Source: Actinoplanes derwentensis (GTDB lineage: Bacteria > Actinomycetota > Actinomycetes > Mycobacteriales > Micromonosporaceae). Taken from it: a DNA stretch of 64,000 nucleotides. This document shows, piece by piece, positions 28,602 through 48,618 of the stretch; positions within the stretch are counted from its first letter, which is position 1, and every line of letters starts with the position of its first letter. A program made the translations under genes and the position numbers. The notes beneath the pieces were generated by a model. The model saw only the letters and a program-made list of their open reading frames with translations, was not told the DNA's origin and ran no database searches. The stretch spans positions 10,334,001 to 10,398,000 of the forward strand of contig NZ_LT629758.1 of assembly GCF_900104725.1 (NCBI RefSeq), written 5' to 3'.

Positions 28602-28675
28602 GCGTCGAGGTTGACAGATGTCGAACCCGCATGCAAGGTGACTTCGACAAGCTTCGGATTCGACAAACCTCGAAT
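28592..28675. promoter_or_regulatory. ArsR operator region between arsR and the flavoprotein gene
   Basis: A perfect repeat ATTCGA - 6 bp - TCGAAT lies at 28658-28675. A related TTCGA - 6 bp - TCGA at 28594-28608 covers the arsR start codon, and further TTCGACAA / TCGAA half-sites lie between (28621-28625 and 28643-28650). The clustering fits an ArsR operator shared by divergent promoters. Confidence 0.6.
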
Positions 28676-28736
28676 CCGGGTACGGCGGATCCCGCCGATC
28701 CGCTCTCCTACTCGAACTCACCGAGGAGTCCCCGCC

Positions 28737-30494
28737 ATGAGTAGCGACGCTTCCACCACGGCCACCGCCGGGCAGGACCCGTGCTGCGGCACCGCCGAAG
28801 CCGCAGCCCAGGCCGACGCCTGCTGCGCCCCGGCCGCCAAGACCGAAGCGGTCGCCGACGGCGCGAGCTGTTGCGTACCGACCGCTCAAGCCGCGCCGGC
28901 CGAGACACGAGAGGCCGGTTGCTGCGGCCCGGCCGGCACCACCAGCGCCGGGGAACTGCTGCCCACGCCTGCCGCCCCTCCGGCCCCGGTCGCTGGCGGT
29001 CAGCCGGAGCAGTCGCCGGTCGTGGTGATCGGCGCCGGACCGGTCGGTATGGCCGCTGCCGCCCACCTGCATGAGCAGGGTTTGCCGTTCCTGGTCCTGG
29101 AAGCCGGTGACCAGGTCGGCGCGTCGGTGCGGCAGTGGGCGCACGTCGGCCTGTTCAGCCCGTGGCGCTACGACATCGACACCGCCGCCCGCAGGCTGCT
29201 CGACGCCGTAGGTTGGGCCGCACCCGACGATGAAACCCTGCCCACCGGCGGCCAGCTTCTCGAGGACTACCTCCAGCCCCTCGCGAAGCTCCCCGAGATC
29301 GCCGCGCACCTGCGGTTCAACGTCACGGTGACCGCGATCAGCCGGGTCGGCGCCGACCGGGTCCGCACCGCCGGCCGCGCCGACCTGCCGTTCGTGATCC
29401 GTCTCGCCGACGGCACCGAGATCACCGCCAGCGCGATCATCGACGCGTCCGGCACTTGGCGCACCCCCAACCCCCTCGGCGCCAACGGCCTGCCCGCCCA
29501 CGGCGAACCCGACACCGCCGCGCTGATCGACCATGCCCTGCCCGACGTGCTCAGCGCCGACCGCGACGCCCACGCCGGGAAACACACCATCGTCGTCGGC
29601 TCCGGGCACTCCGCCGCGAACACCCTGCTCGACCTGGCCCGCCTCGCCGAGACCACCACCGGCACCCGGATCACCTGGGCCGTGCGCGGCGGGTCCGCCA
29701 GCCGCGCGTTCGGCGGCGAGGACGCCGACGAACTACCCGCCCGCGGCGCCCTCGGCAGCGGCCTGCGCATGCTGGTCGACTCCGGCCAGGTCACCCTGGT
29801 CACCGGCTTCGGCGTCCACACCGTCCGCCGTACCAGCGACGGCATCGAGCTGATCGCCGCCGACGGCCGCACGCTGACCGCCGACCGGGCCGTGTCGGCC
29901 ACCGGCTTCCGACCCGACCACGGCATCGCCTCCGAACTGCGCCTGGACCTCGACCCGATCCTGGGCTGCACCCGCACCCTCGCCGACCTGATCGACCCCA
30001 ACGAGCACTCCTGCGGCACCGTCACCCCGCACGGCTACCGCGAACTCGGCCAGCCCGAACCCAACTACTACGCCGTCGGCATGAAGTCCTACGGACGCGC
30101 CCCGACCTTCCTGATGGCCACCGGCTACGAGCAGGTCCGTTCCATCGCCGCCGCCCTCGCCGGTGACTTCGAAGCCGCCGACGACGTGCAGCTCGACCTG
30201 CCCGAAACCGGGGTGTGCAGCACCAACCTCGTCGCGGAGAACGCCGCCCGGGAGATCGCCGCCCGCTTCGGCCTGACCCCCGACGTCCCGATCGCCCTTG
30301 CCGCCGCCACCATGGCACTACTCCCGGCAGCGGCCAGCACCAGCGACGCGGTCCGGGCCGCCGCCGCACAGATCGGCCTCGACCCGGAGACCGCCTTGCA
30401 GATCGCGGCACTGACCGAACAGCCCGGCGCCCTGCCCAGCGTCGCCGGACTGATCAGCCTCACCTCATCCGACGGCGGTAGCTGCTGCGCGTGA
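28737..30494 (+). CDS. FAD-dependent oxidoreductase with Cys-Cys-rich N-terminus
   Basis: A 585-residue flavoprotein. The FAD motif GAGPVGMAAAAHL starts near residue 100, and an NAD(P) motif GSGHSAANTLL lies near 285, with the ATGF-type motif SATGFRPDHG near 390. This is the layout of flavin monooxygenases or ArsO-like proteins. The first ~65 residues carry four CC pairs (DPCCG, DACCA, ASCCV, AGCCG) and the C-terminus is GSCCA. The paired cysteines suggest soft-metal (arsenite) binding. A GAGGAG site eight bases upstream sets the ATG. Divergent from arsR. Confidence 0.8.
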   Translation: MSSDASTTATAGQDPCCGTAEAAAQADACCAPAAKTEAVADGASCCVPTAQAAPAETREAGCCGPAGTTSAGELLPTPAAPPAPVAGGQPEQSPVVVIGAGPVGMAAAAHLHEQGLPFLVLEAGDQVGASVRQWAHVGLFSPWRYDIDTAARRLLDAVGWAAPDDETLPTGGQLLEDYLQPLAKLPEIAAHLRFNVTVTAISRVGADRVRTAGRADLPFVIRLADGTEITASAIIDASGTWRTPNPLGANGLPAHGEPDTAALIDHALPDVLSADRDAHAGKHTIVVGSGHSAANTLLDLARLAETTTGTRITWAVRGGSASRAFGGEDADELPARGALGSGLRMLVDSGQVTLVTGFGVHTVRRTSDGIELIAADGRTLTADRAVSATGFRPDHGIASELRLDLDPILGCTRTLADLIDPNEHSCGTVTPHGYRELGQPEPNYYAVGMKSYGRAPTFLMATGYEQVRSIAAALAGDFEAADDVQLDLPETGVCSTNLVAENAAREIAARFGLTPDVPIALAAATMALLPAAASTSDAVRAAAAQIGLDPETALQIAALTEQPGALPSVAGLISLTSSDGGSCCA

Positions 30495-30562
30495 GCTCAC
30501 CCACCCGCACCACGATGCCCGCCGGCCAGCAGGCCGGCGGGCATCACACACTCCTCACCGCG

Positions 30563-30691
30563 TTCGCAGTCACCCGCAGCCTGGACCCGACCGGAGCCGG
30601 CCGTACACGATGGACGATGCGGTGGAAACCTGCCATCGATGCCTTCGCCATCACCTTCAGTGACCGATGGCCAGGAGCCGAGACCTACTAA
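30563..30691 (+). pseudogene. C-terminal fragment of a mutator-type (IS256-like) transposase
   Basis: The frame ending at 30691 reads TRSLDPTGAGRTRWTMRWKP then AIDAFAITFSDRWPGAETY, matching my recollection of mutator-family transposase C-termini. No start or catalytic core is present. Confidence 0.5.
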
Positions 30692-30737
30692 CGAGAACGC
30701 CAAAAACACCGCTCGTGGTACACGCCCCCCGCCCGGC

Positions 30738-30980
30738 TCAGGCGGCTGCGGTGGTCAGCAGATCACGGAGTTGAGCCGCTGTGGGGATTCGTCCGGCGAG
30801 AACGACGCGGTCATCAACGACCAGGGCGGGTGTGCTCATCACACCGTAGCCGGCGATGGTGGGATAGTCGGTCACGCTCCTGACCTGGGCCGTCAGGTTC
30901 AGGTCAGCGATCGCGGCGCGGGTGAGTTTTTCGAGCGTGTGGCAATTGGCACAGCCGGGTCCGAGGATCTTGATGAACAT
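30738..30980 (-). CDS. Small redox-active thioredoxin-family protein
   Basis: An 80-residue thioredoxin-like protein with a CxxC site (Cys10 and Cys13 in GPGCANCHTLEKL) and the cis-Pro loop STPALVVDDRVV. Such proteins occur next to UPF0718 permeases, as here: the permease stop lies 13 bp upstream in the same direction. It may shuttle thiol electrons or bind metal for that permease (inference). ATG 30980 is preceded by AAAGGCAGGG. Confidence 0.83.
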   Translation of the reverse strand: MFIKILGPGCANCHTLEKLTRAAIADLNLTAQVRSVTDYPTIAGYGVMSTPALVVDDRVVLAGRIPTAAQLRDLLTTAAA

Positions 30981-30993
30981 GATGCCCTGCCTT

Positions 30994-32058
30994 TCAGAGG
31001 ATGGCATTGAACAGGTAGCCGGTGGCCACGATGCCGGTGGCGACCACGCCGACGAAGGCGGCCAGCAGCGGTGGCTTGAGGACCCGCCGCAGCAGGATCA
31101 GCTCGGGTAGCGAGAGCGCGACGACGCTCATCATGAACGCGAGCACGGTGCCGATCGCCATGCCTTTGGCGTAAAGGACCTCTACCAGCGGAAGGATGCC
31201 GGCGGCGTTGGAGTACAGCGGCACCCCGATCGCCACGGCGACCAGTGGGCCGAACGGGTTGTCCGGTCCGGCGACGCGGGTGAAGAAGTCCGCCGGTGCC
31301 CAGCCGTGGATCACCGCGCCCAGCCCGATACCTATGAGCAGGTACGGCCACACCTTCCGCAGGATCGTGGCCACTTCCTCGCGGCCCATCACCAAACGGT
31401 CCGACCAGGTCAGCCGCTGTCCGGCAACGACGGCCGCGCCGCGCAGGGTGGTCTGGTAGACGAAGTCCTCCACCCAGCGGGACGGGCTGACCCGGCCGAG
31501 GACGTATCCGGCGACGGTGGCGATCATCAGTCCGGAGAGCACATAGAGGACGGCGATCCGGGCGCCGAACATGCCGTAGAGCAGCACCACTGCGACCTCG
31601 TTGATGAGCGGGCTGGCGATCAGGAACGACAGGGTGACACCGAGGGGCACACCGGCGGCGACGAAACCGATGAACGCCGGCACCGCCGAACACGAACAGA
31701 ACGGGGTGGCGACACCCAGCCCGGCGGCGGCCAGATTCGCCACTCCCTCACGGCGCCCACCCAGCAGCGCACGGGTGCGCTCCAGGCTCAGGTACGAACG
31801 GGCGATCGTGACCACGAAGATGATGCCGGCCAGTAGCAGCACGATCTTGACGCTGTCGTAGAAGAAGAAATGCACACCTGAGCCCAGCCGGGAGCCGGCG
31901 TCCAGCCGCAGCCAGTCGTAGACGACAAGGTCCCACCACGGCCGGTTCAGCTGATAGGCGACCAGCCACAAGCCGGCCACGGCAGCCAGCGTCGCGCCCT
32001 GCACAGCAGGACGGCGCCAACCGCCCACCGCCGGTGCGGGAATCGATCCGCTGAGCAT
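30994..32058 (-). CDS. UPF0718/DUF318 permease (ArsP-like)
   Basis: A 354-residue membrane protein with about eight or nine hydrophobic segments. The family signature ATPFCSCSAVPAFIGF is present in the first half, with a second similar half (GVPLYSNAAGILPLVEVL). ArsP members export trivalent organoarsenicals; others are of unknown function. ATG 32058 overlaps the arsR-type gene stop by ATGA and has GGGAG upstream. Forms an operon with the regulator and the small thioredoxin. Confidence 0.87.
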   Translation of the reverse strand: MLSGSIPAPAVGGWRRPAVQGATLAAVAGLWLVAYQLNRPWWDLVVYDWLRLDAGSRLGSGVHFFFYDSVKIVLLLAGIIFVVTIARSYLSLERTRALLGGRREGVANLAAAGLGVATPFCSCSAVPAFIGFVAAGVPLGVTLSFLIASPLINEVAVVLLYGMFGARIAVLYVLSGLMIATVAGYVLGRVSPSRWVEDFVYQTTLRGAAVVAGQRLTWSDRLVMGREEVATILRKVWPYLLIGIGLGAVIHGWAPADFFTRVAGPDNPFGPLVAVAIGVPLYSNAAGILPLVEVLYAKGMAIGTVLAFMMSVVALSLPELILLRRVLKPPLLAAFVGVVATGIVATGYLFNAIL

Positions 32059-32360
32059 CACGGTCTCCCGGGAAAAGTGGGAAGAGCGGCCGCGAGCCGG
32101 TCGGCCGCACTGTCGGCGATGGCGTAGTCGATCCACCGACCCCGCCGCCGGGCGCTCACCAGGCCTGCCTCACGCAGCACTTTGAGGTGGTACGACAGCA
32201 GATTCGCTGCTACCGCCGCGACCGGCCGCAGATCGCACACACACCGGGTCCGGCCGTCGGCCAGGTGGGTGAGTAGCCGCCACCGCACCGGGTCGGCGAC
32301 CACACCCAGCAGTGCCGACGATTCGATCGCGTTTGCTGCAATCGCCGTTGAAGTGTTCAC
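32058..32360 (-). CDS. ArsR-family metal-responsive repressor
   Basis: About 100 residues from GTG 32360. The winged helix is clear (VVADPVRWRLLTHLADG, then ANLLSYHLKVLREAGLV), and the sensor-type CxC is in TRCVCDLRPV. Two tandem GTG codons (32363 and 32360) follow a GAGGTG, too close for an ideal ribosome site, so the start is uncertain; the upstream DNA is transposase debris, so the native promoter may be lost or replaced. Co-transcribed with the permease and thioredoxin genes. Confidence 0.82.
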   Translation of the reverse strand: MNTSTAIAANAIESSALLGVVADPVRWRLLTHLADGRTRCVCDLRPVAAVAANLLSYHLKVLREAGLVSARRRGRWIDYAIADSAADRLAAALPTFPGRP

Positions 32361-34482: not shown

Positions 34483-35487
34483 TCAGTGGCGACGCCTGAT
34501 CTGACGGCGACTCGGGGTGAGGCAGACCGGGTGTCGCGCGCGGCCTGCGGTGCCGTTGGAGGCCGGACTGTCGTGATCCGTGAGGTGGTCTCTGCGGTGG
34601 CCACCGAGGTCGGCTGGGTCAGCGGCGGTGATCCGGTTGGCGCGGGTGAGGTCGCCTTCCGTCTGCGTCAGGGCAGTCCCGGGTTCGTGCAGGTAGCCGA
34701 GGACTCGGTCGAAGCCGATGCGGGCGAGGCGGATCACGATTTCCTCGGCACGGTCGGCGTCGGCGACCACGAGCAGAGTGTCGCCGGGCTGGGCGACGGT
34801 GCCGGCGGTTTCGGCGAACCGGCCGTAGGCCGGGATGTTCAGCGCCCCCTTGAGGTGCCCGGCGAAGGCGAAGTAGCCGGTGCGGCGGGCTGTCCGGCGG
34901 TGACCACGGTGAGGAACTGCTCGACGCTCATCGGGGCGCAGGCGTAATTGGTGCGGCGTTGCTCGCCGATGGTGGACAGGTTCTTGCCGCAGGCGGATCC
35001 GGCGCCGTGGGCGGGGAACACCCGAACTTCGTCGGGCAGGGCCATGAGTTTGTGCTGCACGCTGTCGTGGAGCATGTGGTCGAGTTCGTCGGCGGTCACC
35101 CCGGCGGAGACGAGCAGGTCGGGTCGGCCTACGTCACCGATGAACAGCGCGTCGCCGGTGTGTTCGTAGACGAGCACGCTGATCGATTCGGGGGTGTGCC
35201 CGGGGGGTTTCCATGATCTGCAGGGTGACGTCGCCGAGGCTGATGCGTTCACTATCGGTGAAGTGCCGGATCGGGTATTCGGTCTCGGCGCGCCGGCCGA
35301 ACCCCATCCAGGCGCCGGTGGCCGCGGCGACTTCGAGGTGGCCGGCGTGGAAGTGGGTGTTGATGACCCCGGCGATGGTCAGGCCGTGGGCCCGGGCGTC
35401 GGCGAGCACGGCCTGGCCCGTGGTCTCGTTGGCGATCAGGTATGAGGCCTGCGACAGGCAGTCGAGGTAGTACTGCGTGACCAGCAT
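34483..35487 (-). pseudogene. Frameshifted MBL-fold hydrolase-rhodanese protein
   Basis: From ATG 35487 the frame reads MLVTQYYLDCLSQASYLIAN through ISLGDVTLQIMETP, then shifts at a run of six Cs near 35208 (five would keep frame) into GHTPESISVLVYEH and DALFIGDVGRPDLL. A second shift near 34870 leads to FAGHLKGALNIPAYGRFAE, TLLVVADADRAEE and a rhodanese-like tail. The metal motif is also damaged: THFHAGHLEVAAATG lacks the Asp of HxHxDH. Likely an inactive persulfide-dioxygenase-like gene. Confidence 0.75.
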
Positions 35488-35528
35488 GATCTTCTTCCGT
35501 GGTCGGTGGTGTGGGGTCTCGGAGTGGA

Positions 35529-35900
35529 TCAGACGAGCCGGCCGGGGCGGCCGCCGTTGGCCTGTAGCGGCATCCCGGCGCTGGTCCAGGCGCCCATGCC
35601 GCCGGTGAGGTTGTGCACCTGCCGGCCGTCGCGGGCCAAAAGGACGGCGGCCTGCCGAGAGCGGGCCCCGGACCGGCAGACGGTGATCACCGACCGGTCG
35701 GCCGGCACTTCGGCGAGTCGGGCGGTGAGCTGCCCGAGCGGGATGTGCCGGGCCCGCGGCGCGTGCCCAGCGCGCCATTCGGCCGGTTCGCGTACGTCGA
35801 GCAGCATCGCGCCGTCGGCGATCAGCATGGTCGCCTGCTGCGGGTTCACGGACCGGTACGGCTTGCGGAACAGCTTGGTGAGCAGTGCGGCTACGGGCAT
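35529..35900 (-). CDS. Single-domain rhodanese (sulfurtransferase)
   Basis: A 123-residue protein with one rhodanese domain: LLDVREPAEWRAGHAP, and the active-site loop CRSGARSRQA with the persulfide-forming cysteine near residue 78. An ~20-residue N-terminal extension precedes it. AAGGGGA lies upstream of the ATG. A CstR-type palindrome at 35958-35973 stands 58 bp upstream, so it heads its own repressor-controlled unit. Confidence 0.9.
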   Translation of the reverse strand: MPVAALLTKLFRKPYRSVNPQQATMLIADGAMLLDVREPAEWRAGHAPRARHIPLGQLTARLAEVPADRSVITVCRSGARSRQAAVLLARDGRQVHNLTGGMGAWTSAGMPLQANGGRPGRLV

Positions 35901-35957
35901 CGGATCCCCTTTGGGGTTCGGTGGCGTGGAGGCGTGAGCGGGCACCTGTCCTATCGA

Positions 35958-35973
35958 ATACCCCTGGGGGTAT
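35958..35973 (-). promoter_or_regulatory. CstR/CsoR-type operator 1
   Basis: ATACCCCTGGGGGTAT, one of five related palindromes in the window. On the minus strand the second arm runs into TATTCG, a possible -10, 58 bp before the rhodanese ATG. Confidence 0.8.
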
Positions 35974-36034
35974 CTGAGAGTGGTGGCTGTGGTGTGCGCC
36001 GCTGTCGCGGATGTCAATCTCTGGGGAAGGGCGG

Positions 36035-36811
36035 TCAGGCCGTGACGGGGTTGACGATCGCCTGGACGGCGACGAACGCGGCGATGGCGAACACGAGCCA
36101 GGCGAAGGCGCGTTGCAGCCGCTGGGTGGGCAGCCGGGTGGCGATGCGGCCGGCCAACAGAGAGCCGGTGATCGCGGCGAGGGTGAACGCCGTGGTGATG
36201 CGGTAGTCGATGGCCGTGTCGCCGGCGTGCGCGGCGAACCCGGCGGCCGAGTTGACCACGATGATGACCAACGAGGTGGTGACCGCCGCAGGCATGTTCA
36301 GTCCGAGTAGCAGCACCAGGGCCGGGATGATCAGGAAACCGCCGCCGACGCCGAACAGACCGGTCAGGAAGCCGACGCCCAGGCCGGCGGCGATGGATTT
36401 GGGCAGGCAGCCGCGCCAGTTGATGCCGCCGCCGGGCAGGGCGCAGTCGCCGCCGGAATCGTCGGTGCCGACCAGCATCCGCCACCCGGCGATGACCATG
36501 AGCAGGGCGAACCCGGCCAGGACCAGGCGCGGGTCGAGGAGCCGGTTGACGGCGGTGCCGGCGAACGCGGCGGCGGCGCCAGTGCCGCCGACGATGGCGG
36601 CGATACGCCACTGCACCAGCCCAGCCCGTAGGCGCGGCAGCAGCGCGGTGGCCGACGAGATACCGACGACCAGCAGGGAGGTGGGCACCGCGGCGGCCAG
36701 GGTGAGGCCGGCGCCGTAGACGAGGGCGGGAACGGCGAGGATCGACCCGCCGCCGCCGAGCAGGCCGAGCAGGATCCCGATGAGAGCGCCGAGCCCGACA
36801 GCGGCGATCAT
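36035..36811 (-). CDS. TauE/SafE-family sulfite/organosulfur exporter
   Basis: A 258-residue membrane protein with eight hydrophobic segments in two halves, each with the family glycine-rich motif ([17 protein letters not shown] and [17 protein letters not shown]). The family exports sulfite, sulfoacetate or related anions. Coming after rhodanese and MBL genes it probably removes sulfite made from persulfides (inference). The ribosome site is weak. Confidence 0.9.
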
Positions 36812-36862
36812 GATCGGTCGCGCCCCGGTCGGCGGCAGACGCTGCAGCGATACGGCATCGGA

Positions 36863-37450
36863 TTACCGCCGGTCGCCGGTCAGTGCGGTGACGACCTGGT
36901 CGAGGTCGGTGCGCGGGCCGCGGTTGTAGGGCAGTCTGGCCAGTAGCATGCCCATCGCGCAGGTGTTGGTCAGTGCCGCGAAGGCAAGACCCCCACCGGC
37001 CAGCGCGGCCACCCACTTGACCGGATCGATCAGGACGCTGGCGAGCACCGCGAGCAGGACGATGCTGCCGGCGACCAGGCGGACCTGCCGTTCGAGGTCC
37101 CAGCGGGGTGTGCCGGTGGTGACCGGTGCGTTGGCGGCCTGCCAGGCGGTGATTCCGCCGGTGAGTACCCGCAGGTTCGGCAGACCTCCCCCGGCGAGGG
37201 CCTGTTCGGCCTGGCCGGCGCGCTGCCCGGAGCGGCAGACCAGAACGACCTGCTCGTCGAGGTGGTTGCGGAGTTCGTCGCGGTGCTCGCGCAGCAGATC
37301 CAGCGGCACGTTGTAGGAGCCGGGGATGTGCGTGGTCTCGAACTCGGCTGGGGTGCGCACATCGATCAGCCGAGGCGCGTGGCCGGTGGCGAGCAGGTGT
37401 TTCAGGTCGGGGACATCGAGGGCGGCGGGGGTGCCGGTGGGCGTGGTCAT
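36863..37450 (-). CDS. Rhodanese with C-terminal DUF2892 membrane hairpin (YgaP-like)
   Basis: A 195-residue protein. Residues 1-115 form a rhodanese domain (RLIDVRTPAEFETTHIPG; active loop CRSGQRAGQA). Residues 125-185 are a DUF2892-type two-helix membrane anchor (LVAGSIVLLAVLASVLI). This places persulfide transfer at the membrane. ATG 37450 has AGGAG 12 bases upstream; a GTG at 37483 overlapping the previous gene is an alternative. Confidence 0.88.
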   Translation of the reverse strand: MTTPTGTPAALDVPDLKHLLATGHAPRLIDVRTPAEFETTHIPGSYNVPLDLLREHRDELRNHLDEQVVLVCRSGQRAGQAEQALAGGGLPNLRVLTGGITAWQAANAPVTTGTPRWDLERQVRLVAGSIVLLAVLASVLIDPVKWVAALAGGGLAFAALTNTCAMGMLLARLPYNRGPRTDLDQVVTALTGDRR

Positions 37451-37469
37451 GTGGGGCTGGTGCTCCTGT

Positions 37470-38864
37470 TCAGTGTCCGGCAACGATGGGCAGGCCGGCG
37501 CCGGCCGCGGTGGGGTAGGCGTCGTCGATGTGCACGACCTGGCGACCTGCGCGTTGCAGCAGGCTGGTCGCTGCCGCGGCGCGATAGCCGGAGCCGCAGT
37601 GCACCCAGACCGTGCCGGCGGGCACGTCGGCGAGGCGGTGCGGCAGGTCGGGCAGCGGGATGTGGATCGCGCCGTCGATGTGGCCGGCCCGCCATTCGTT
37701 GGTCATCCGCACGTCGAGCAGAACGTCGACACGGGGCAGGCCGTGCGGTGATGTGCCGGTACGGGCGGCGGCCAGGTCGGTGAAGGCGGCGGTGGTGAGT
37801 TCGGTGAGGCGGGTGTCGTCGCCGCCGGACCATTGATCGGGGCTGCCTGTGGCGTGGGTGGCGGGCCGGTCGATGCCGATGCGGGCGAGTTCGCGCTGGG
37901 CGTCGGCGATCTGCTGGTCGTTGTCGCCGAGCAGGGTGATCGGCGCGCCCCACGGGGCCATCCAGCCGAGCCAGGTCGACATCGGCCCGTCCAGGCCGAA
38001 GCTGAGCGTGCCGGTCAGATGCCGATGTGTGAACGCCTTGCGGGAGCGCAGGTCGACCACCCACTCGCCGTCGGCGATCCGCTGCGCGAGTTCGGCCGGG
38101 TCGGCCACGGCGATCGGGGTGAGGTCGATCAGATCGGCGCCGGTGGAGTTGCGGGCACCCATGTGCGCGTAGTAGGCCGGATAGGCGTCCAGGCCGGCCA
38201 GGGTCTGCTGGACGAAGTCGTCGGTCTCCAGGCGCAGCGCCGGGTTGGCGGTGCGTTCCCGGCCGATGGTGGACTCCGGGGCGTCGGACTGGGTGGCCGA
38301 GCAGAAGCTGCCGAAACCGTGGGTCGGCCATACCTGGGCGCCGTCGGGCAGCAGGTCGGCCAACCGCCTGGCGGAGGCGTGCTGGTGTTCGGCCAGAGTG
38401 TGCGCGTGCTGTTTACCGAGCAGGTCGGTGCGGCCGGTGGTGCCGAACAGCAGCGATCCGCCGCTGAACACGCCGAGCGGCCCGGCGGTCTCGTCGAGGA
38501 TGTAGGACAGGTGGTGGAAGGTGTGGCCGGGCGTGGCGACGACCCGCAGGCGCATCCGTGGTGACACGGTGAGTTCGTCGCCGTCGGTCACCGCCCGGCG
38601 GTCGAAGCCGACATGATCGTCGGTGGCGACCAGGTAGGCCGCCCCGGTCAGCTTCGCCAGGGCGAGGCCGCCGGAGACGTAGTCGTTGTGCAGGTGGGTC
38701 TCGGCCACGTGGGTGATCCGCACGCCGAGGCTGCCCGCGAGGGCCAGGATGCGGTCGATGTCGCGTTGCGGGTCGATGACGACCGCTACCTGCCCGTCGT
38801 GGGCCAGGTAGCTCCGGTCACCCAGCGATGATGTCTGTACGACTTCCACGGTCACGTCAGTCAC
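37470..38864 (-). CDS. MBL-fold persulfide dioxygenase-like protein with two rhodanese domains
   Basis: A 464-residue protein. Residues ~1-240 are a metallo-beta-lactamase fold with the THLHNDYVSGG metal motif and ATPGHTFHH. A first rhodanese domain (~270-350) lacks the active cysteine (ITLLGDNDQQ), and a second (~370-464) has it (VHCGSGYRAAAA). ETHE1-type relatives oxidise glutathione persulfide to sulfite; in actinobacteria another thiol would serve. The ribosome site AAGGAG abuts ATG 38873 with no spacer, so the GTG three codons later (38864), nine bases from it, is the likelier start. Confidence 0.9.
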   Translation of the reverse strand: MTDVTVEVVQTSSLGDRSYLAHDGQVAVVIDPQRDIDRILALAGSLGVRITHVAETHLHNDYVSGGLALAKLTGAAYLVATDDHVGFDRRAVTDGDELTVSPRMRLRVVATPGHTFHHLSYILDETAGPLGVFSGGSLLFGTTGRTDLLGKQHAHTLAEHQHASARRLADLLPDGAQVWPTHGFGSFCSATQSDAPESTIGRERTANPALRLETDDFVQQTLAGLDAYPAYYAHMGARNSTGADLIDLTPIAVADPAELAQRIADGEWVVDLRSRKAFTHRHLTGTLSFGLDGPMSTWLGWMAPWGAPITLLGDNDQQIADAQRELARIGIDRPATHATGSPDQWSGGDDTRLTELTTAAFTDLAAARTGTSPHGLPRVDVLLDVRMTNEWRAGHIDGAIHIPLPDLPHRLADVPAGTVWVHCGSGYRAAAATSLLQRAGRQVVHIDDAYPTAAGAGLPIVAGH

Positions 38865-38899
38865 TGCGCTCATCTCCTTGTACGTCGTCGGGGTGGTGG

Positions 38900-39196
38900 T
38901 CAGTGGCCGGTCTCGACGGGATGTCCGGCCTGCCGCCAGGCCTCGGTGCCGCCGGCCAGCGACTGCACCCGGGCGCCCGCGGCGTCCAGCAGCCGGGCGG
39001 CGGCCAGGCTCCTGGCGCCGGAGTGGCACACCGTCACCACGTCCTGCCCGGCGTAGCGAGCGGCGGCCGTCTCCAGTTCGTCGAGTGGCACGTTCACCGC
39101 ACCGGGCAGATGACCGGCGGCGTACTCGTTCGGGCTGCGCACATCGAGCAACACCCCGGCGCCCAACTGGTCGACACGGATCTCTCTGACTGTCAT
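38900..39196 (-). CDS. Single-domain rhodanese
   Basis: A 98-residue rhodanese (VLLDVRSPNEYAAGHLPG; active loop CHSGARSLAA). First gene of a leftward operon of rhodanese, MBL-rhodanese, rhodanese-DUF2892 and TauE/SafE permease. GGAG lies eight bases before the ATG, and the CstR-type operator is 21 bp upstream. Confidence 0.92.
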   Translation of the reverse strand: MTVREIRVDQLGAGVLLDVRSPNEYAAGHLPGAVNVPLDELETAAARYAGQDVVTVCHSGARSLAAARLLDAAGARVQSLAGGTEAWRQAGHPVETGH

Positions 39197-39213
39197 TGCA
39201 AAACTCCGATCAG

Positions 39214-39232
39214 TGTATACCCCTGGGGGTAT
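39214..39232 (-). promoter_or_regulatory. CstR/CsoR-type operator 2 with -10 element
   Basis: ATACCCCTGGGGGTAT (39217-39232). On the minus strand its second arm runs into TATACA, a good -10 (39214-39219), so bound repressor would block the sulfur operon promoter. Confidence 0.85.
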
Positions 39233-39262
39233 GTTGCGGACATGGTTCGGCCATGAACAAGC

Positions 39263-39304
39263 CGCAAGACTGCCGGCCCTCGAGTTCGGGCCGGCAGTCT
39301 TGCG
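39263..39304 (-). terminator. Terminator of the cstR gene
   Basis: A 17-bp perfect stem (CGCAAGACTGCCGGCCC with its complement) and an 8-nt loop starts two bases past the cstR stop, separating it from the rhodanese operon promoter. Confidence 0.8.
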
Positions 39305-39305
39305 C

Positions 39306-39627
<322 letters not shown>

Positions 39628-39689
39628 GGATCCGGGTCCGAGTGACCCGGTGTGATCGCGGCTTGAGGCCTTTCGGCCCCCACCCAAAC

Positions 39690-39705
39690 ATACCCCCAGG
39701 GGTAT
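39690..39705 (+). promoter_or_regulatory. CstR/CsoR-type operator 4
   Basis: ATACCCCCAGGGGTAT, 42 bp upstream of the CoA-disulfide-reductase ATG. The second arm leads into TATCTT, a plausible -10. Confidence 0.85.
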
Positions 39706-39747
39706 CTTCGGTGCAGAGTTGTCATAGGCCAGGAAGCGAGAACAGAG

Positions 39748-41421
39748 ATGAAGACCGTCATCGTGGGCGCCGTGGCCGGCGGGATGTCAGCGGCGACCAG
39801 GCTGCGCCGCCTCGACCCCGAGGCCGACATCGTGGTGTTCGAACGCGGCGAACACGTCTCCTACGCCAACTGCGGCCTGCCTTACCACGTCGGCGGCGTG
39901 ATCGCCGACCGCGAGGCTCTGCTGCTGAACACACCCGACAGCCTGCGCGCCCGCTTCGACCTCGACGTCCGGGTCCGCACCGAGGTCGCCGCCATCGACC
40001 GCGACCGGCAAGCCGTACAGGTGCGTGAGATCGACGGCGGCCGACGGTACGAGGAGCACTACGACCGGTTGGTGCTCAGCCCGGGGGCGGCGCCGTTCGT
40101 GCCGGACCTGCCCGGCATCGAACGAGCGATGACCCTACGGTCGGTCACCGACGCCGATCGGCTCACCACCCTGATCGCCGAGCAACGGCCCAGGACCGCC
40201 GTGGTGGTCGGCGGTGGATTCATCGGCCTGGAGACCGCGGAGAACCTGCGCCGTCGCGGGCTGCCGGTCGACCTCGTCGAACTCGACCGGCAGGTGCTCG
40301 CGCCCCTGGACCCGGAGATGGTCACCGCGGTCCACGCAGAACTGCGCCGCCACGGCGTCCGCGTGCACTGCGGCACCGCCCTGACCAAGGTGTTGCCCGC
40401 CGCGGTCGAACTCACCGACGGCCGGCACCTCGACGCCGACCTGGTCCTGCTGGCCATCGGCGTACGCCCGGAGACCGGCCTGGCCCGGGCCGCCGGACTG
40501 GCCATCGGCCCGCGCGGCGGTATCGCCGTCGACGACGCGATGCGAACCAGCGACCCGCACATCTTCGCCGTCGGCGACGCGGTCGAGAAGATCGACCGTA
40601 TCGACGGCGAAACCACACTGATCCCTCTGGCCAACATCGCCAACCGGCAAGGACGCCTCGCCGCCGATACGATCGCCGGCCGCCCCGGCCGTCTGCAGGG
40701 GCGCCTCGGCACCGCCATCGTGCAGATCTTCGACCTGACCGTCGCCGTCACCGGCTGGAACGAGAAGCGCCTCCGCGCAGCCGGCCGCCCCTACCATGCG
40801 ATCCACACCCACCCCGCGTCCCACGCCGGCTACTACCCGGGCGCCCAGCCGATGTCGCTCAAACTGCTGTTCGACCCCCACGACGGGCGGATCCTCGGCG
40901 CTCAAGCCGTCGGCGGCGACGGCGTCGACAAACGCATCGACGTTCTCGCGACCGCGATCCGCGCAGGCCTGACCGCCGCGGACCTCGCCGACCTCGAACT
41001 CGCCTACGCGCCCGCCTTCGGCTCGGCGAAGGATCCGGTCAACATGCTCGGCTACATCGCCGACAACCTGCGCACCGACGGCCAGCACAGCCTGCAATGG
41101 CACGAACTCGACGACGCCCTCGCCGACGGCGCCACCCTGGTCGACGTGCGCACCGCCGCGGAACACTCCGCCGGGCACATCCCCGGCTCGATCAATCTGC
41201 CACTCGACGAACTGCGCGACCACCTCGACGACCTGCCCGACAGCGACCTGATCGTCTACTGCCAGGTCGGCCAGCGCGGCCACACCGCCACCGCCCTGCT
41301 CACCGGCCTCGGCCACCGAGCCATCAACCTCGACGGCGGCTACCGCACCTGGCAAGCCGGCAATGCGGCACGTCCACCATCAGAGACCCACGAGTCCCTG
41401 TACGGCCGCCGTCCGGAGTGA
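39748..41421 (+). CDS. CoA-disulfide/persulfide reductase with C-terminal rhodanese
   Basis: A 557-residue flavoprotein. The FAD motif VGAVAGGMSAATRLR opens the protein; the active cysteine is Cys42 in SYANCGLPYHVGG; the NAD(P) motif GGGFIGLETAENL lies near 155; the FAD end motif FAVGDAVE near 275. Residues ~450-540 are a rhodanese domain with Cys505 in YCQVGQRGH. CoADR-rhodanese proteins reduce CoA disulfide, persulfide or polysulfide. It is divergent from cstR, and an AGGAAG lies upstream of the ATG. Confidence 0.93.
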   Translation: MKTVIVGAVAGGMSAATRLRRLDPEADIVVFERGEHVSYANCGLPYHVGGVIADREALLLNTPDSLRARFDLDVRVRTEVAAIDRDRQAVQVREIDGGRRYEEHYDRLVLSPGAAPFVPDLPGIERAMTLRSVTDADRLTTLIAEQRPRTAVVVGGGFIGLETAENLRRRGLPVDLVELDRQVLAPLDPEMVTAVHAELRRHGVRVHCGTALTKVLPAAVELTDGRHLDADLVLLAIGVRPETGLARAAGLAIGPRGGIAVDDAMRTSDPHIFAVGDAVEKIDRIDGETTLIPLANIANRQGRLAADTIAGRPGRLQGRLGTAIVQIFDLTVAVTGWNEKRLRAAGRPYHAIHTHPASHAGYYPGAQPMSLKLLFDPHDGRILGAQAVGGDGVDKRIDVLATAIRAGLTAADLADLELAYAPAFGSAKDPVNMLGYIADNLRTDGQHSLQWHELDDALADGATLVDVRTAAEHSAGHIPGSINLPLDELRDHLDDLPDSDLIVYCQVGQRGHTATALLTGLGHRAINLDGGYRTWQAGNAARPPSETHESLYGRRPE

Positions 41422-41555
41422 ACCTGCCACCGGATGAGACGGCGCCGCCGCTGAAGGCGGCGACCGGTGGATGTCGAGGCACCACGGTGCAGCGGGTCGA
41501 TGGCGCTCCTGCACTGAAGAGGGCTTAGTCCTCTACGGCGCCGCCCGCCCCGTAG

Positions 41556-41571
41556 ATACCGTGGGGGGTAT
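41556..41571 (+). promoter_or_regulatory. CstR/CsoR-type operator 5 (imperfect)
   Basis: ATACCGTGGGGGGTAT resembles the four better sites. It lies 22 bp upstream of the SQR-like start, with TATCAG following as a possible -10. Confidence 0.7.
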
Positions 41572-41593
41572 CAGAGCCTGTGAGGTGAGCGCA

Positions 41594-42823
41594 ATGCGAC
41601 GGTTGCTCGTACTGGGTGCCGGTACAGCGGGCACGATGGTGGTCAACAAGCTGCGCCACCGGCTGCTCGCCCCGGACTGGCAGATCACCGTGGTCGAGCC
41701 CGGCGACACACACTTCTACCAGCCGGGCTACCTGTTCCTGCCATTCGGCATCTACGCGCCGGCTCAGGTCGTCAAGCCGACCCGGTCGTTGATCTCCGAC
41801 ACAGTGGAACTGATCCGTGGCGAGGTCGACAGGGTGGACCCGGCGGACAATCGGGTGCTGTTGTCCGACGGCCGGTCGCTGCCCTATGACTACCTGGTGA
41901 TCGCTACCGGCGTCACACCCCGGCCGGACCAGACACCGGGCATGCTCGACGGCGGCCGGTGGCGCCGCAGCATCTTCGACTTCTACACCTACGACGGTGC
42001 GCTCGCGCTGGCGCACGCCCTCGACACGTTCGACGGCGGCCGACTGGTCGTGCACATCACCGACATGCCGATCAAGTGCCCGGTCGCGCCACTTGAGTTC
42101 ACCCTTCTCGCCGATGCCCACCTGCGCCGGCGTGGCCTGCGTGACCGGGTCGAACTGGTGTACGCCACCCCGCTGCCCGGGGCGTTCACCAAACCGATCG
42201 CGGCCGCGCGGCTCGGCTCGATGCTCGACGACCGGAAGATCACCGTCGAACCGGACTTCCTGGTCGAACGCATCGAGGACAAGAGGCTCGTGTCCTACGA
42301 CGAGCGGGAGATCGCCTTCGATCTGCTGGTCACCGTGCCGCTGAACATGGGCGCCGACTACGTGGCCCGTTCGGGGCTCGGCAACGAGCTGAACCTGGTG
42401 CCCGTTGACCGGCACACCATGCTCGCCAAGGCGTACGACAACATCTTCGCCCTCGGCGACGCCAACGACATCCCGACCTCCAAAGCCGGGTCGGTCGCTC
42501 ACTTCTCCGTCGAAGTCTTCGCCGACAACTTCGTCGAGTACGCGGCCGGCACCCCGATGACCGGACGCTTCGACGGCCACGCCAACTGCTTCGTCGAGTC
42601 CGGCGACGGCAAAGCGCTGCTCATCGACTTCAACTACGACACCGAACCCCTGCCGGGCAGCTACCCGATACCGGTCGCCGGCCCGTTCCGGCTACTCGAC
42701 GAGACGGCCGTGAACCACTGGGGCAAGCTCGCGTTCCGCTGGATGTATTGGAACGTGCTCCTGCCCGGGCGGCCGATCCCGTTGCCAGCGCACATGTCGA
42801 TGGCCGGCAAGCAAACCCCGTGA
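41594..42823 (+). CDS. Sulfide:quinone oxidoreductase-like flavoprotein
   Basis: A 409-residue FAD protein of the SQR / type-II NADH dehydrogenase family: LLVLGAGTAGTMVVNKL, VVEPGDTHFYQPGYLFLPFG, DYLVIATGV, FALGDANDIPTSKAGSVAHF. Cys162 in DMPIKCPVAPLE matches a conserved SQR cysteine; Cys332 (HANCFVE) is a possible partner. SQR oxidises sulfide to a persulfide and passes electrons to quinone at the membrane; a C-terminal amphipathic segment (FRWMYWNVLL) could bind it. Heads an operon with DsrC- and DsrE2-like genes. GTG 41585 is an alternative start. Confidence 0.87.
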   Translation: MRRLLVLGAGTAGTMVVNKLRHRLLAPDWQITVVEPGDTHFYQPGYLFLPFGIYAPAQVVKPTRSLISDTVELIRGEVDRVDPADNRVLLSDGRSLPYDYLVIATGVTPRPDQTPGMLDGGRWRRSIFDFYTYDGALALAHALDTFDGGRLVVHITDMPIKCPVAPLEFTLLADAHLRRRGLRDRVELVYATPLPGAFTKPIAAARLGSMLDDRKITVEPDFLVERIEDKRLVSYDEREIAFDLLVTVPLNMGADYVARSGLGNELNLVPVDRHTMLAKAYDNIFALGDANDIPTSKAGSVAHFSVEVFADNFVEYAAGTPMTGRFDGHANCFVESGDGKALLIDFNYDTEPLPGSYPIPVAGPFRLLDETAVNHWGKLAFRWMYWNVLLPGRPIPLPAHMSMAGKQTP

Positions 42824-42839
42824 CCCGAAGGGAGCAGTC

Positions 42840-43154
42840 ATGCCCGTCACCACCATCGCCGGCCGCGACATCCACGTCGACGACGAAGGATTCCTGACCG
42901 TCTACGACGAATGGGACCCCGACCTGGCCAAGCGGTTGGCCGCGCAGATCGGCATCGACCTGACCGACGCGCACTTCAAAGCACTCACATTCCTGCGTGA
43001 CGACTACGCCACCCAAGGCGAGACCGCCACCCTGCGCCGCGTCTCCACGCTGGGCGGTATCCCGACCAGGCAACTGTTCGCGCTGTTCCCCAAGAAGCCG
43101 GCCAAGAAGATGGCCTACATCGCCGGCCTGCCCAAACCACACGGCTGCGTCTGA
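42840..43154 (+). CDS. DsrC/TusE-family sulfur carrier protein
   Basis: A 104-residue protein with the family pattern DEGFLTVYDEWDPDLAKRLA, HFKALTFLRDDY and RQLFALFPKKPAKKMAYIAG (in part). It ends GLPKPHGCV, with the penultimate Cys103 that carries sulfur as persulfide or trisulfide in DsrC. The second DsrC cysteine ten residues earlier is absent, so it resembles TusE or single-cysteine DsrC-like proteins. A GAAGGGAG site precedes the ATG. Between the SQR and DsrE2 genes. Confidence 0.9.
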   Translation: MPVTTIAGRDIHVDDEGFLTVYDEWDPDLAKRLAAQIGIDLTDAHFKALTFLRDDYATQGETATLRRVSTLGGIPTRQLFALFPKKPAKKMAYIAGLPKPHGCV

Positions 43155-43168
43155 AACGGAGCACCGCC

Positions 43169-43681
43169 ATGACCAATGATGCCGCACCGGCGATCATCCC
43201 GAACTTCGACGACGAGCAGAGCGCCGGCCGCAAACTCGCCATCATCTGTTCCAAGGGCACCCTCGACATGGCCTACCCCGGCCTCATCCTCGCCAACGCC
43301 GCCCTCGGCGAAGGCGTCGAGACCCACCTGTTCTTCACTTTCTGGGGCTTCGACATGATCACCAAGTCGCGGATGGCCGATCTGAAGTTCACGATGCTGG
43401 GTAACACCGCCACCCACCTGCCACAGGGGATCGGCGGCCTGCCCGGGATGACCGCTGTCACCACCCACCAGATGAAGAAGCAGATCGCCGACGCGGGAGT
43501 GCCCGAGGTGCCCGACTTCCTGGAGCAGATCGTCGCCTCCGGCGGCCACCTGTGGGCCTGCCGGATGTCGGCCGACATGATGCACCTGGCCAAGCCCGAC
43601 CTCTACGACGGCGTCGAAGACATCATCAACGCCGCCGACTTCATCGAGAAGACCCACGGCGCGCAGCTCCTGTTCATCTAG
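43169..43681 (+). CDS. DsrE2/DsrE-like sulfurtransferase
   Basis: A 170-residue protein of the DsrE/DsrF family: KLAIICSKGTLDMAYPGLIL, ETHLFFTFWGFDM, and the conserved Cys131 in HLWACRMSADMMHL. DsrE2 hands sulfur between rhodanese, TusA-type and DsrC-type carriers. Fifteen bases after the DsrC gene and clearly co-transcribed; together with SQR and rhodaneses it forms a sulfur relay without reverse Dsr reductase or heterodisulfide-reductase genes in the window. Confidence 0.9.
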   Translation: MTNDAAPAIIPNFDDEQSAGRKLAIICSKGTLDMAYPGLILANAALGEGVETHLFFTFWGFDMITKSRMADLKFTMLGNTATHLPQGIGGLPGMTAVTTHQMKKQIADAGVPEVPDFLEQIVASGGHLWACRMSADMMHLAKPDLYDGVEDIINAADFIEKTHGAQLLFI

Positions 43682-47226: not shown

Positions 47227-48618
47227 CTAGTACTGCTACGGCGGCTCGTAGCTTCCGAGCGTGCTGAGTCGTTTGCGGTAGTGGGCAGTTCGGGCGCGGT
47301 GGTTGCAACGTCGTCGGAAGTTCGACCAGGCCAAGGCATGCTTGGTGGTGTTCTTCGCGGTCAGGATCAGGACGGCGAGTAGGTGTCTGATCTCTTTGAC
47401 GGTCAGTGGGATCAGGCCGTCCTGGCCGTGGTCGCCGGTGGTGCCCCCTTTTCGGCTTCGCGGGCGCGGGTGATGGTCAGGAACGCGGCGGCGGCCATGG
47501 ACAGGGTGATGTGGGCGTACCAGGCGTCGTAGCGGCGGAACTGGTACTGGTCCATGCCGGCCTCGTTCTTCGCGATCTGGAACGATTCCTCGACCGCCCA
47601 CCTCGCGCCCGCCGTGGCCACCAGCCTGCGCAGCCGGGTGCCGCGCGGGCCGAAGCACACGTAGTACGCCAGTTCGCCGCTGCTGATGCTGCGCCGGGCC
47701 AGCACCCAGCCACGCCGGCCATGCTCGAACTCGGTGCGGATCGGGACACTCGTCCAGTCGTAGACACGCGGGCCGTGGGCGCCGTCACCGCAGGACATCC
47801 GCCGCCAGGCCCCGGCCCGGACCTTGCCGATCAACGCGTCGACGCGGGTGGTGGTGTGCAGCCCGGACGCGACCTCATGATCCTTACGGGTGGCCAGCAC
47901 ATAGTGAATGTCCTGCTGTTCACACCATTCGCGCAGTGCCCGGTTCTGGCCGTACGCCTCGTCGCCGGTGAACCAGGCGAACGGCACCTTCGCGTCGACC
48001 GCACGTTCCAGCATGGACCTGGCCTGCTCGGGTTTGGTGGCGAACGGGACGTCGTCGCCGATGTGCGCACGCCGGCACCGGTCCCGGTCGTCGGTCCAGG
48101 ACTTCGGCAGGTACAACTCCCGGTCGACGTGTGCCCGCCCATGCCGGGTGTGGTAGGTCAGGAACACCCCGAGCTGGCAGTTGTCGATCTTCCCGGTCGT
48201 TCCGGTGTACTGCCTTTGAACACCGGCCGATGATCTTCCCTTCTTGATGAAGCCGGTCTCGTCAGCGACCAGCACCCCGGCCTCATCGCCGATCGCCGCC
48301 ACCAGCGCGGACCGCACCTCATCACGCAGCTTGTCCCGGTCCAGACACCGGCTGACCAGCAAACCCTGCATCTTGTCCGGCGTCGCGTCACCGGCATGCT
48401 CGGCCAGACTCCAGCCACTACGCCGCTCGATCGGCGCCATCAACCCCCGCAGATACTTCCACGCCTGCCACCGGACATCCGCCCGGCTGAACCAATGCGA
48501 AAACCCCAGGAAGAAATCCCAGAGGTCATCGTCCCAGCCGCCTACCTGTTCAGCCGTCACCACGCCCAGCAAACGATTCAGAACCACACGAAGTGGCGAC
48601 CCGCCGTTGCAGTACTAG
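47227..48618. mobile_element. IS701-type insertion sequence with CTAG target duplication
   Basis: The ends TACTGCTACGGCGG (from 47231) and, in reverse complement, TACTGCAACGGCGG (from 48614) differ at one base. Both are flanked by CTAG (47227-47230 and 48615-48618), fitting the YTAR 4-bp duplications I recall for IS701. Element 47231-48614 holds one transposase gene. Confidence 0.85.
47236..48587 (-). CDS. IS701-type transposase, C-terminal part reached by a -1 shift
   Basis: From GTG 48587 a 391-residue frame carries the DDE transposase core: VLVADETGFIKKG (first Asp), FTGDEAYGQN (second Asp), and RWAVEESFQIAKNE (Glu). It stops at 47412, but the conserved C-terminus (DGLIPLTVKEIRHLLAVLIL to AHYRKRLST) continues in the -1 frame to 47236. 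The switch point is A-AAG-GGG at 47451-47445 on the minus strand, a possible slippery heptamer. This is either programmed frameshifting or a recent mutation. Confidence 0.82.

Follow-up and report, generated by a model that had tools for sequence, protein, structure and literature searches.

Introduction

In Staphylococcus aureus, the repressor CstR controls a sulfide:quinone reductase (SQR), a rhodanese-carrier and a persulfide dioxygenase (PDO), and the carrier of this cst operon is the fused protein CstA. Part of this scheme is restated in PMC9918477. Here we describe a locus of Actinoplanes derwentensis (Micromonosporaceae) in which a CstR-type repressor gene and five CstR-type operators accompany rhodanese genes and an SQR-DsrC-DsrE2 operon, with a DsrC/DsrE2 pair that is not known from the cst operon. 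The window, by which we mean the whole 64,000-nucleotide stretch that was analysed, covers positions 10334001-10398000 of a 10.65-Mb single-contig genome. Judged from its sequence, the cluster is probably one CstR regulon, complete in itself, that deals with sulfide and persulfide.

Several described systems resemble parts of this locus. In Streptomyces coelicolor, ScCsoR recognises an ATACCn6GGTAT motif in gel shift assays, is released by polysulfide and needs Cys37 and Cys66; its sites are placed at positions -48 and -9 relative to the start of transcription (available text of PMC7533328). That circuit shares with the present one a CsoR-family two-cysteine persulfide sensor, ATACCn6GGTAT operators, PDO, rhodanese and TauE, but as described in the same text it comprises four genes without SQR, DsrC or DsrE2. 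In Bacillus licheniformis, the CstR-type repressor YrkD and the two-component activator NreBC jointly control sqr, within a cluster that likewise encodes DsrE, rhodanese, PDO and TauE homologues; where DsrC is found here, TusA is found there (accessible portion of PMC9918477). NreBC senses sulfide according to that portion, whereas the palindromic box described below in actinobacterial SQR promoters looks DosR/DevR-like, with a degenerate copy in the window. Thermus TTHA1953 is also a CsoR-like, cysteine-reactive repressor of sulfur oxidation genes, but unlike the repressor here it controls Sox genes (PMC10318464, in the part available). Finally, the OsdR/DevR dormancy regulon combines a NarL-type regulator with a palindromic box, and the present genome has a DevR homologue; no SQR-DsrC-DsrE2 member was found in the available text on that regulon (PMC5069765), and in our counts its OsdR consensus is not enriched ahead of SQR relative to the reversed control.

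A sequence-only reading of this DNA had proposed an undescribed sulfur relay under CstR control. The SQR-DsrC-DsrE2 unit is real. In B. licheniformis, a regulon of the CstR type that includes SQR together with homologues of DsrE and TusA has been described before (available text of PMC9918477). Searches of an open-licence library, which lacks subscription journals, brought up no paper recognisable as a description of SQR-DsrC-DsrE2 in Actinomycetota or of its joint CstR/DosR-type control.

Results

Five CstR-type operators lie within one sulfur cluster

Palindromes of the CstR type precede rhd1, the unit led by rhd2, cstR, the gene for a CoA-disulfide-reductase (CoADR)-rhodanese and the SQR-DsrC-DsrE2 operon (Table 1). 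All five are where the sequence-only reading had placed them, and the gene families it named were confirmed by Pfam and NCBIfam models. The sites at 35958, 39217, 39600 and 39690 match ATACCCCNNGGGGTAT without mismatch, and the site at 41556 matches with two. At up to three mismatches the window contains six matches, compared to a mean of 0.91 in shuffled sequence, and six were reached by no shuffle; the sixth match, at 23499, lies outside the cluster. Across the genome, ATACCN6GGTAT occurs at six places, five of them within the cluster, and the reversed control pattern at two.

The search for further palindromes, a suggestion of the same reading, thus returned the cluster for five of the six exact matches, the sixth being judged a chance occurrence. 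This sole exact match outside the cluster, at 6,831,310 (L008), lies just ahead of an apparent groES-groEL pair, which may be chance; it was rejected as an additional CstR site, as it overlaps the apparent groES ribosome-binding site. It was one of two places inspected among the six with two mismatches outside the cluster. The other, at 5,795,885, was rejected as it sits within a coding frame resembling MurA.

The accompanying claim that the second arm of each palindrome runs into a -10-like hexamer was not confirmed. The coding-strand hexamers at the five sites read TATTCG, TATACA, TATATT, TATCTT and TATCAG, their first three letters are always part of the operator, and TANNNT is fitted in only two of the five, TATATT (cstR) and TATCTT (CoADR).

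The repressor has two conserved cysteines and lacks the copper histidine

The repressor belongs to the CsoR family (PF02583, 75.3 bits). Its best match in the PDB is 7mq1, called csoR by its depositors, which we take to be pneumococcal CstR. When the window protein was aligned with 35 relatives, Cys35 and Cys64 were found in 36/36 sequences, and the position of the copper-binding histidine (C-4) was never histidine (Gly in 33, Ala in 2, Ser in 1). By its two conserved cysteines and the missing copper-site histidine, the repressor is classed as CstR-type. Because the operator motif matches that of ScCsoR and the repressor is of this type, the CstR regulon is of a known kind.

An alternative in which the repressor is a CsoR that senses copper, and the cluster responds to copper, is scarcely credible. 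The protein family is the same, and sites of CsoR-family repressors are also GC-rich palindromes (PMC7533328, available text), but the copper histidine is replaced in every aligned sequence and the sites stand in front of sulfur genes. Moreover, two further CsoR-family genes, both with the copper histidine by eye, are encoded elsewhere in the genome, and the stretches of 1.5-2 kb around them contain no site within four mismatches.

SQR, DsrC and DsrE2 form a conserved actinobacterial module

From a GTDB genome scan for DsrC relatives, the best 80 of 232 places were kept. SQR, DsrC and DsrE2 are encoded in this order on one strand in 80/80 loci, and by this conserved order the predicted operon is a real and widely conserved actinobacterial module. 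The SQR matches a type III model of the selenoprotein subtype, whose motif is HxxU (PMC13188914, in the part available). The window reads HANC, the cysteine version, and cysteine was also seen by eye in relatives wherever the HxxU position is visible in the stretches that were read. In an alignment of DsrE2 from the window and 76 loci (four of the 80 were dropped for length), Cys131 is present in 77/77 sequences and Cys27 in 74/77.

The gap between SQR and DsrC exceeds 300 bp in 25/80 loci. By eye, 22 of these 25 gaps (L027, L030, L033 and others) contain an open frame whose product has the motif TQP[ED] in common with the others; Pfam assigns the gene from L027, the single one tested, to DUF1641. 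Among the DUF1641-type loci that were scored, which are not all of them, only L030 was labelled with an operator or a DosR-like box.

The window DsrC scores above the cut-offs of both DsrC-family models, PF04358 and TIGR03342. Its C-terminus reads CV, as in 80/80 loci, and the position of the second cysteine (CysB) is alanine in the window and alanine in 79 and serine in 1 of the 80 relatives; counted over the whole protein, 79 of these carry one cysteine and one carries two. Since the second C-terminal cysteine is missing, the DsrAB/trisulfide chemistry of a true DsrC is unavailable.

This bears on dissimilatory sulfur oxidation, in which DsrC would hand sulfur to DsrAB or sHdr for energy. 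Allochromatium vinosum uses DsrE and DsrC in a pathway of this kind (restated in the available text of PMC9918477), but beside the missing cysteine, the partner enzymes were not recognised. The genome-wide search with the NIR_SIR domain model PF01077 found two proteins, a NirA-type or assimilatory sulfite reductase (best models below cut-off) and NirB, and no dsrAB. No Hdr was recognised among the four proteins of the genome with a CCG domain (PF02754): one was tested by NCBIfam, with TfrB and LdhH as best models, both below cut-off, and three were judged by eye to be LutA-, GlcF- and lactate-dehydrogenase-like. The earlier statement that dsrAB and hdr are not visible therefore extends to the whole genome, as far as these two families and the three judgements by eye reach. 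Dissimilatory oxidation is thus very unlikely. Given that neither DsrAB nor Hdr was recognised and that DsrC lacks the second cysteine, a persulfide relay for detoxification appears likelier.

Alternatively, DsrC could act as TusE and feed tRNA thiolation through MnmA, or another biosynthetic enzyme. Its single C-terminal cysteine is as in TusE, and many relatives (best 120 of 6818) are named 'tRNA 2-thiouridine synthesizing protein E' or TusE/DsrC/DsvC. However, DsrC stands with SQR and DsrE2 in all 80 loci and here behind a CstR-type operator, and the TusE equivalog model gives 56.9 bits against a cut-off of 191. In a sample of 81 genomes of the family, DsrC was matched in 11, nearly over its full length in nine of them and as fragments in two; a protein without a match in 70/81 genomes is accessory, and for this reason a TusE-type housekeeping role is unlikely. 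The A. derwentensis genome encodes one clear TusA (5.79 Mb), and a further match falls just below cut-off. TusA was rejected as a regulon member, its gene adjoining an apparent cysteine desulfurase.

CstR-type operators recur in relatives

The exact ATACCN6GGTAT pattern was found within about 1.5 kb in 22/29 CstR-type loci of other genomes of the family, and its reversed control in 0/29. An operator matrix was built from CstR-type loci of the family, leaving out L142, which holds the SQR operon; its training counted part of the sites twice, as exact and as loose pattern. In the interval -250 to +30 of SQR, a matrix score of at least 12 was reached in 24/73 loci, compared to 0/3456 reversed windows. 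For counts over 73 loci, seven of the 80 had been dropped because the SQR start was missing or the upstream region short; eight loci of the family (L114-L121), which by their identical best sites seem to repeat species in part, were left out. In a different count, four loci with a site overlapping the start codon were lost to the upstream-window cut. The 16-mer of the SQR operator in the window, ATACCGTGGGGGGTAT, is identical in L013, L014, L018, L028 and L044, and falls within one of two conserved islands in the aligned SQR promoters.

When mapped on an SQR tree, the presence of the operator requires no fewer than 13 changes, a figure that includes both gains and losses. The tree was a quick one of 73 rows with 25/70 inner branches weak, and places Paractinoplanes durhamensis locus L014 (89%) as the closest SQR relative of the window. 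By this mapping, CstR operators appear to have been gained and lost ahead of the SQR operon in several lineages.

A CstR-type gene is present in 11/11 of the genomes with DsrC and in 21/70 of the others, 32 in all (Fisher p 1.1e-5, an optimistic value given the kinship of genomes within a family and the inclusion of the query's own genome). Genes were called CstR-type at E up to 2e-14, the CsoR-like group starting at 1.6e-8. The two genes lie 0.9 Mb apart in G066 and 0.46 Mb apart in G055; in the broken assemblies G026 and G002 they fall on separate contigs, which proves nothing. Taken together, the identity of the operators, the residues of the repressor and the sites found in relatives support well the CstR control that had been predicted.

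A DosR/DevR-like box precedes SQR in many relatives

The sequence-only reading reported the CstR sites but missed a second element of the relatives. A palindrome resembling GGGACCTTCGTCCCT is common to the regions upstream of SQR and usually lies 40-79 bp ahead of the gene (25 of the 30 scoring at least 8). The DosR core motif, at up to three mismatches, occurs in 26/72 SQR promoters (eight of the 80 loci dropped for a missing SQR start or a short upstream region), compared to 2/72 reversed promoters and 52/3190 reversed background windows.

The genome itself was searched with a pattern written from the SQR promoters. At up to two mismatches its matches were fewer than those of the reversed control (17 and 22 versus 65 and 65), and therefore only the seven matches at up to one mismatch, for which no control count was made, were used. 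Five of these boxes precede PPDK, cydA, a divergent devR/devS-like pair, an Acg-family gene and PFL. The remaining two lie ahead of a small gene without family match (L169) and at a place without recognised gene (L171). Genes such as PPDK, cydA, devR/devS, the Acg family and PFL belong to DosR regulons. The best solved match of the DevR homologue is 3c3w, M. tuberculosis DevR (260 bits), and the devS-like kinase carries GAF and HisKA_3 domains. Independent evidence for the identity of the box consists of the counts with the DosR core and the genes behind these boxes; a matrix trained on the SQR promoters was not relied on.

A motif built from six of these boxes was found in 24/73 SQR promoters, 0/73 reversed promoters, 36/4998 reversed windows and 30/4805 other windows; the six were picked by likeness to SQR promoters, and the count shows concentration before SQR, not an independent test of identity. 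The devR/devS box, located with the same SQR-promoter-derived pattern, was found at up to four mismatches in 20/73 SQR promoters, 0/73 reversed promoters and 33/4805 other windows.

Operator and box were compared in 72 loci: both were present in 16, the operator only in 8, the box only in 7 and neither in 41 (Fisher p 2.3e-5). In the window and in seven loci from Micromonosporaceae (L013-L016, L018, L020, L025) the operator follows the box and begins 19-20 bp after it; in L073 the distance is 39 bp. The order is the opposite in L031, L032, L047, L063 and L069, where the operator is found immediately upstream.

As a side observation, a Usp/PPDK/PFL cluster with DosR-like boxes at G000:C1:4855000-4874900 (L162) resembles the genome's hypoxia island. 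A 391-amino-acid transposase-like gene at window 47412-48587, near the sulfur cluster, has an apparently identical counterpart inside this island (L162:7733-8908).

Layout of the locus

On the minus strand, downward from 39196, the genes run rhd2, MBL-rhodanese, YgaP-type rhodanese and TauE, followed by rhd1 and a split MBL-like gene; on the plus strand CoADR-rhodanese is followed by SQR-DsrC-DsrE2. The MBL-rhodanese protein is a probable persulfide dioxygenase, a function we infer. In the split gene, two stops interrupt 34839-35486, and no Pfam family was found for the open piece 34839-35252 by itself; the gene is either broken or affected by sequencing errors. Upstream of the cluster, window positions 28611-32136 carry an ArsE-type thioredoxin-like gene and two genes recognised by eye, one for a permease and one ArsR-like, with no CstR-type site at up to three mismatches in that stretch.

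Table 1. Features of the sulfur cluster, in window positions.
Feature	Positions	Strand	Remarks
MBL-like metallo-hydrolase gene, by eye	34483..35486	-	split over three frames
Rhodanese rhd1	35529..35900	-	PF00581
CstR-type operator ATACCCCTGGGGGTAT, upstream of rhd1	35958..35973	no strand	
TauE/SafE sulfite exporter	36035..36811	-	PF01925
Rhodanese with YgaP-like transmembrane domain	36863..37450	-	PF00581, PF11127
MBL-fold and rhodanese protein	37470..38873	-	PF00753 (23.4 bits, cut-off 22.7), PF00581
Rhodanese rhd2	38900..39196	-	PF00581
CstR-type operator ATACCCCTGGGGGTAT, upstream of rhd2-MBL/rhodanese-YgaP-TauE	39217..39232	no strand	
CstR-type CsoR-family repressor	39306..39575	-	PF02583; Cys35, Cys64, Gly at copper-His position
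CstR-type operator ATACCCCCGGGGGTAT, upstream of cstR	39600..39615	no strand	
CstR-type operator ATACCCCCAGGGGTAT, upstream of CoADR-rhodanese	39690..39705	no strand	
CoA-disulfide-reductase-like flavoprotein with C-terminal rhodanese	39748..41421	+	TIGR03385 469.4 bits, below cut-off 578.8
Degenerate DosR/DevR-like box copy AGGGCTTAGTCCTCTA, aligned with relatives' boxes; doubtful here	41520..41535	+	score -1.2
Asymmetric CstR-type operator ATACCGTGGGGGGTAT, upstream of SQR	41556..41571	no strand	
Type III sulfide:quinone reductase (SQR)	41594..42823	+	NF049943 597.9 bits, cut-off 525
DsrC/TusE-family carrier, single Cys (Cys103, C-terminal GCV)	42840..43154	+	PF04358, TIGR03342
DsrE2-family sulfur carrier, Cys27 and Cys131	43169..43681	+	PF13686 110.6 bits, cut-off 25

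Discussion

We propose a model in which reduced CstR would occupy the five ATACCN6GGTAT operators until persulfides, its presumed ligand, modify the two cysteines and release it. SQR would then oxidise sulfide to sulfane sulfur and pass the electrons to quinone. DsrE2 and the single-cysteine, TusE-like DsrC would take up the sulfane sulfur, forming protein persulfides, and bring it to the rhodaneses and MBL-rhodanese, the putative end acceptors in this direction of flow, which would yield sulfite for export by TauE. The CoADR-rhodanese would recycle low-molecular-weight persulfide. The genes present at the locus support this scheme, in which the order of transfer is putative.

A number of observations weigh against this model or its extension to low oxygen. 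Of the five operators, that of SQR scores lowest (17.0 bits versus 27.9-29.0), and 49/73 SQR operons have no CstR-type operator at a score of at least 12; CstR control is therefore not general, and as predicted from operators it is patchy among relatives. One MBL-like gene of the regulon is, as read, broken, and DsrE2 (95.2 bits against the NF047629 cut-off of 210) and CoADR both fall under their NCBIfam equivalog cut-offs. With regard to the box, the published Streptomyces OsdR consensus AGGGCCGATCGGCCCT (PMC5069765), at up to four mismatches, was found in 7/73 SQR promoters, 7/73 reversed promoters and 136/4805 windows elsewhere, counts that lend it no support, and a tree-based paired test of the association between operator and box was not significant (median p 0.219). 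In the window, low-oxygen input at the SQR promoter may have been lost, because its box copy scores -1.2 and the promoter has at least six mismatches to the devR/devS box.

An SQR operon mainly under hypoxic (DosR-type) control, with the palindrome ahead of it incidental, would also fit the weak SQR operator and the DosR-like box that many relatives have in a comparable position. This is improbable, as the exact ATACCGTGGGGGGTAT recurs in five relatives within a conserved promoter island and the window's own box is degenerate. A CstR regulon that includes the SQR operon remains our preferred explanation.

Beyond this locus, we tentatively suggest that SQR-DsrC-DsrE2 of Actinomycetota is a distinct branch of sulfide oxidation, in which a type III SQR loads DsrE2 and a single-cysteine DsrC. 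In many lineages its promoters would pair a DosR-type hypoxia box, read by a presumed regulator of that type, with a repeatedly recruited and variously placed CstR operator, tying sulfide oxidation to both persulfide and low oxygen or dormancy.

By its operators, the CstR regulon is confined almost wholly to one locus of a large actinomycete genome, and the operon gives a testable role to single-cysteine DsrC homologues in organisms without DsrAB. The boxes in relatives suggest that sulfide oxidation is part of a low-oxygen programme in many Actinomycetota. Such a link would parallel the control by repressor and two-component system in Bacillus licheniformis, where NreC is presumably a NarL-type regulator.

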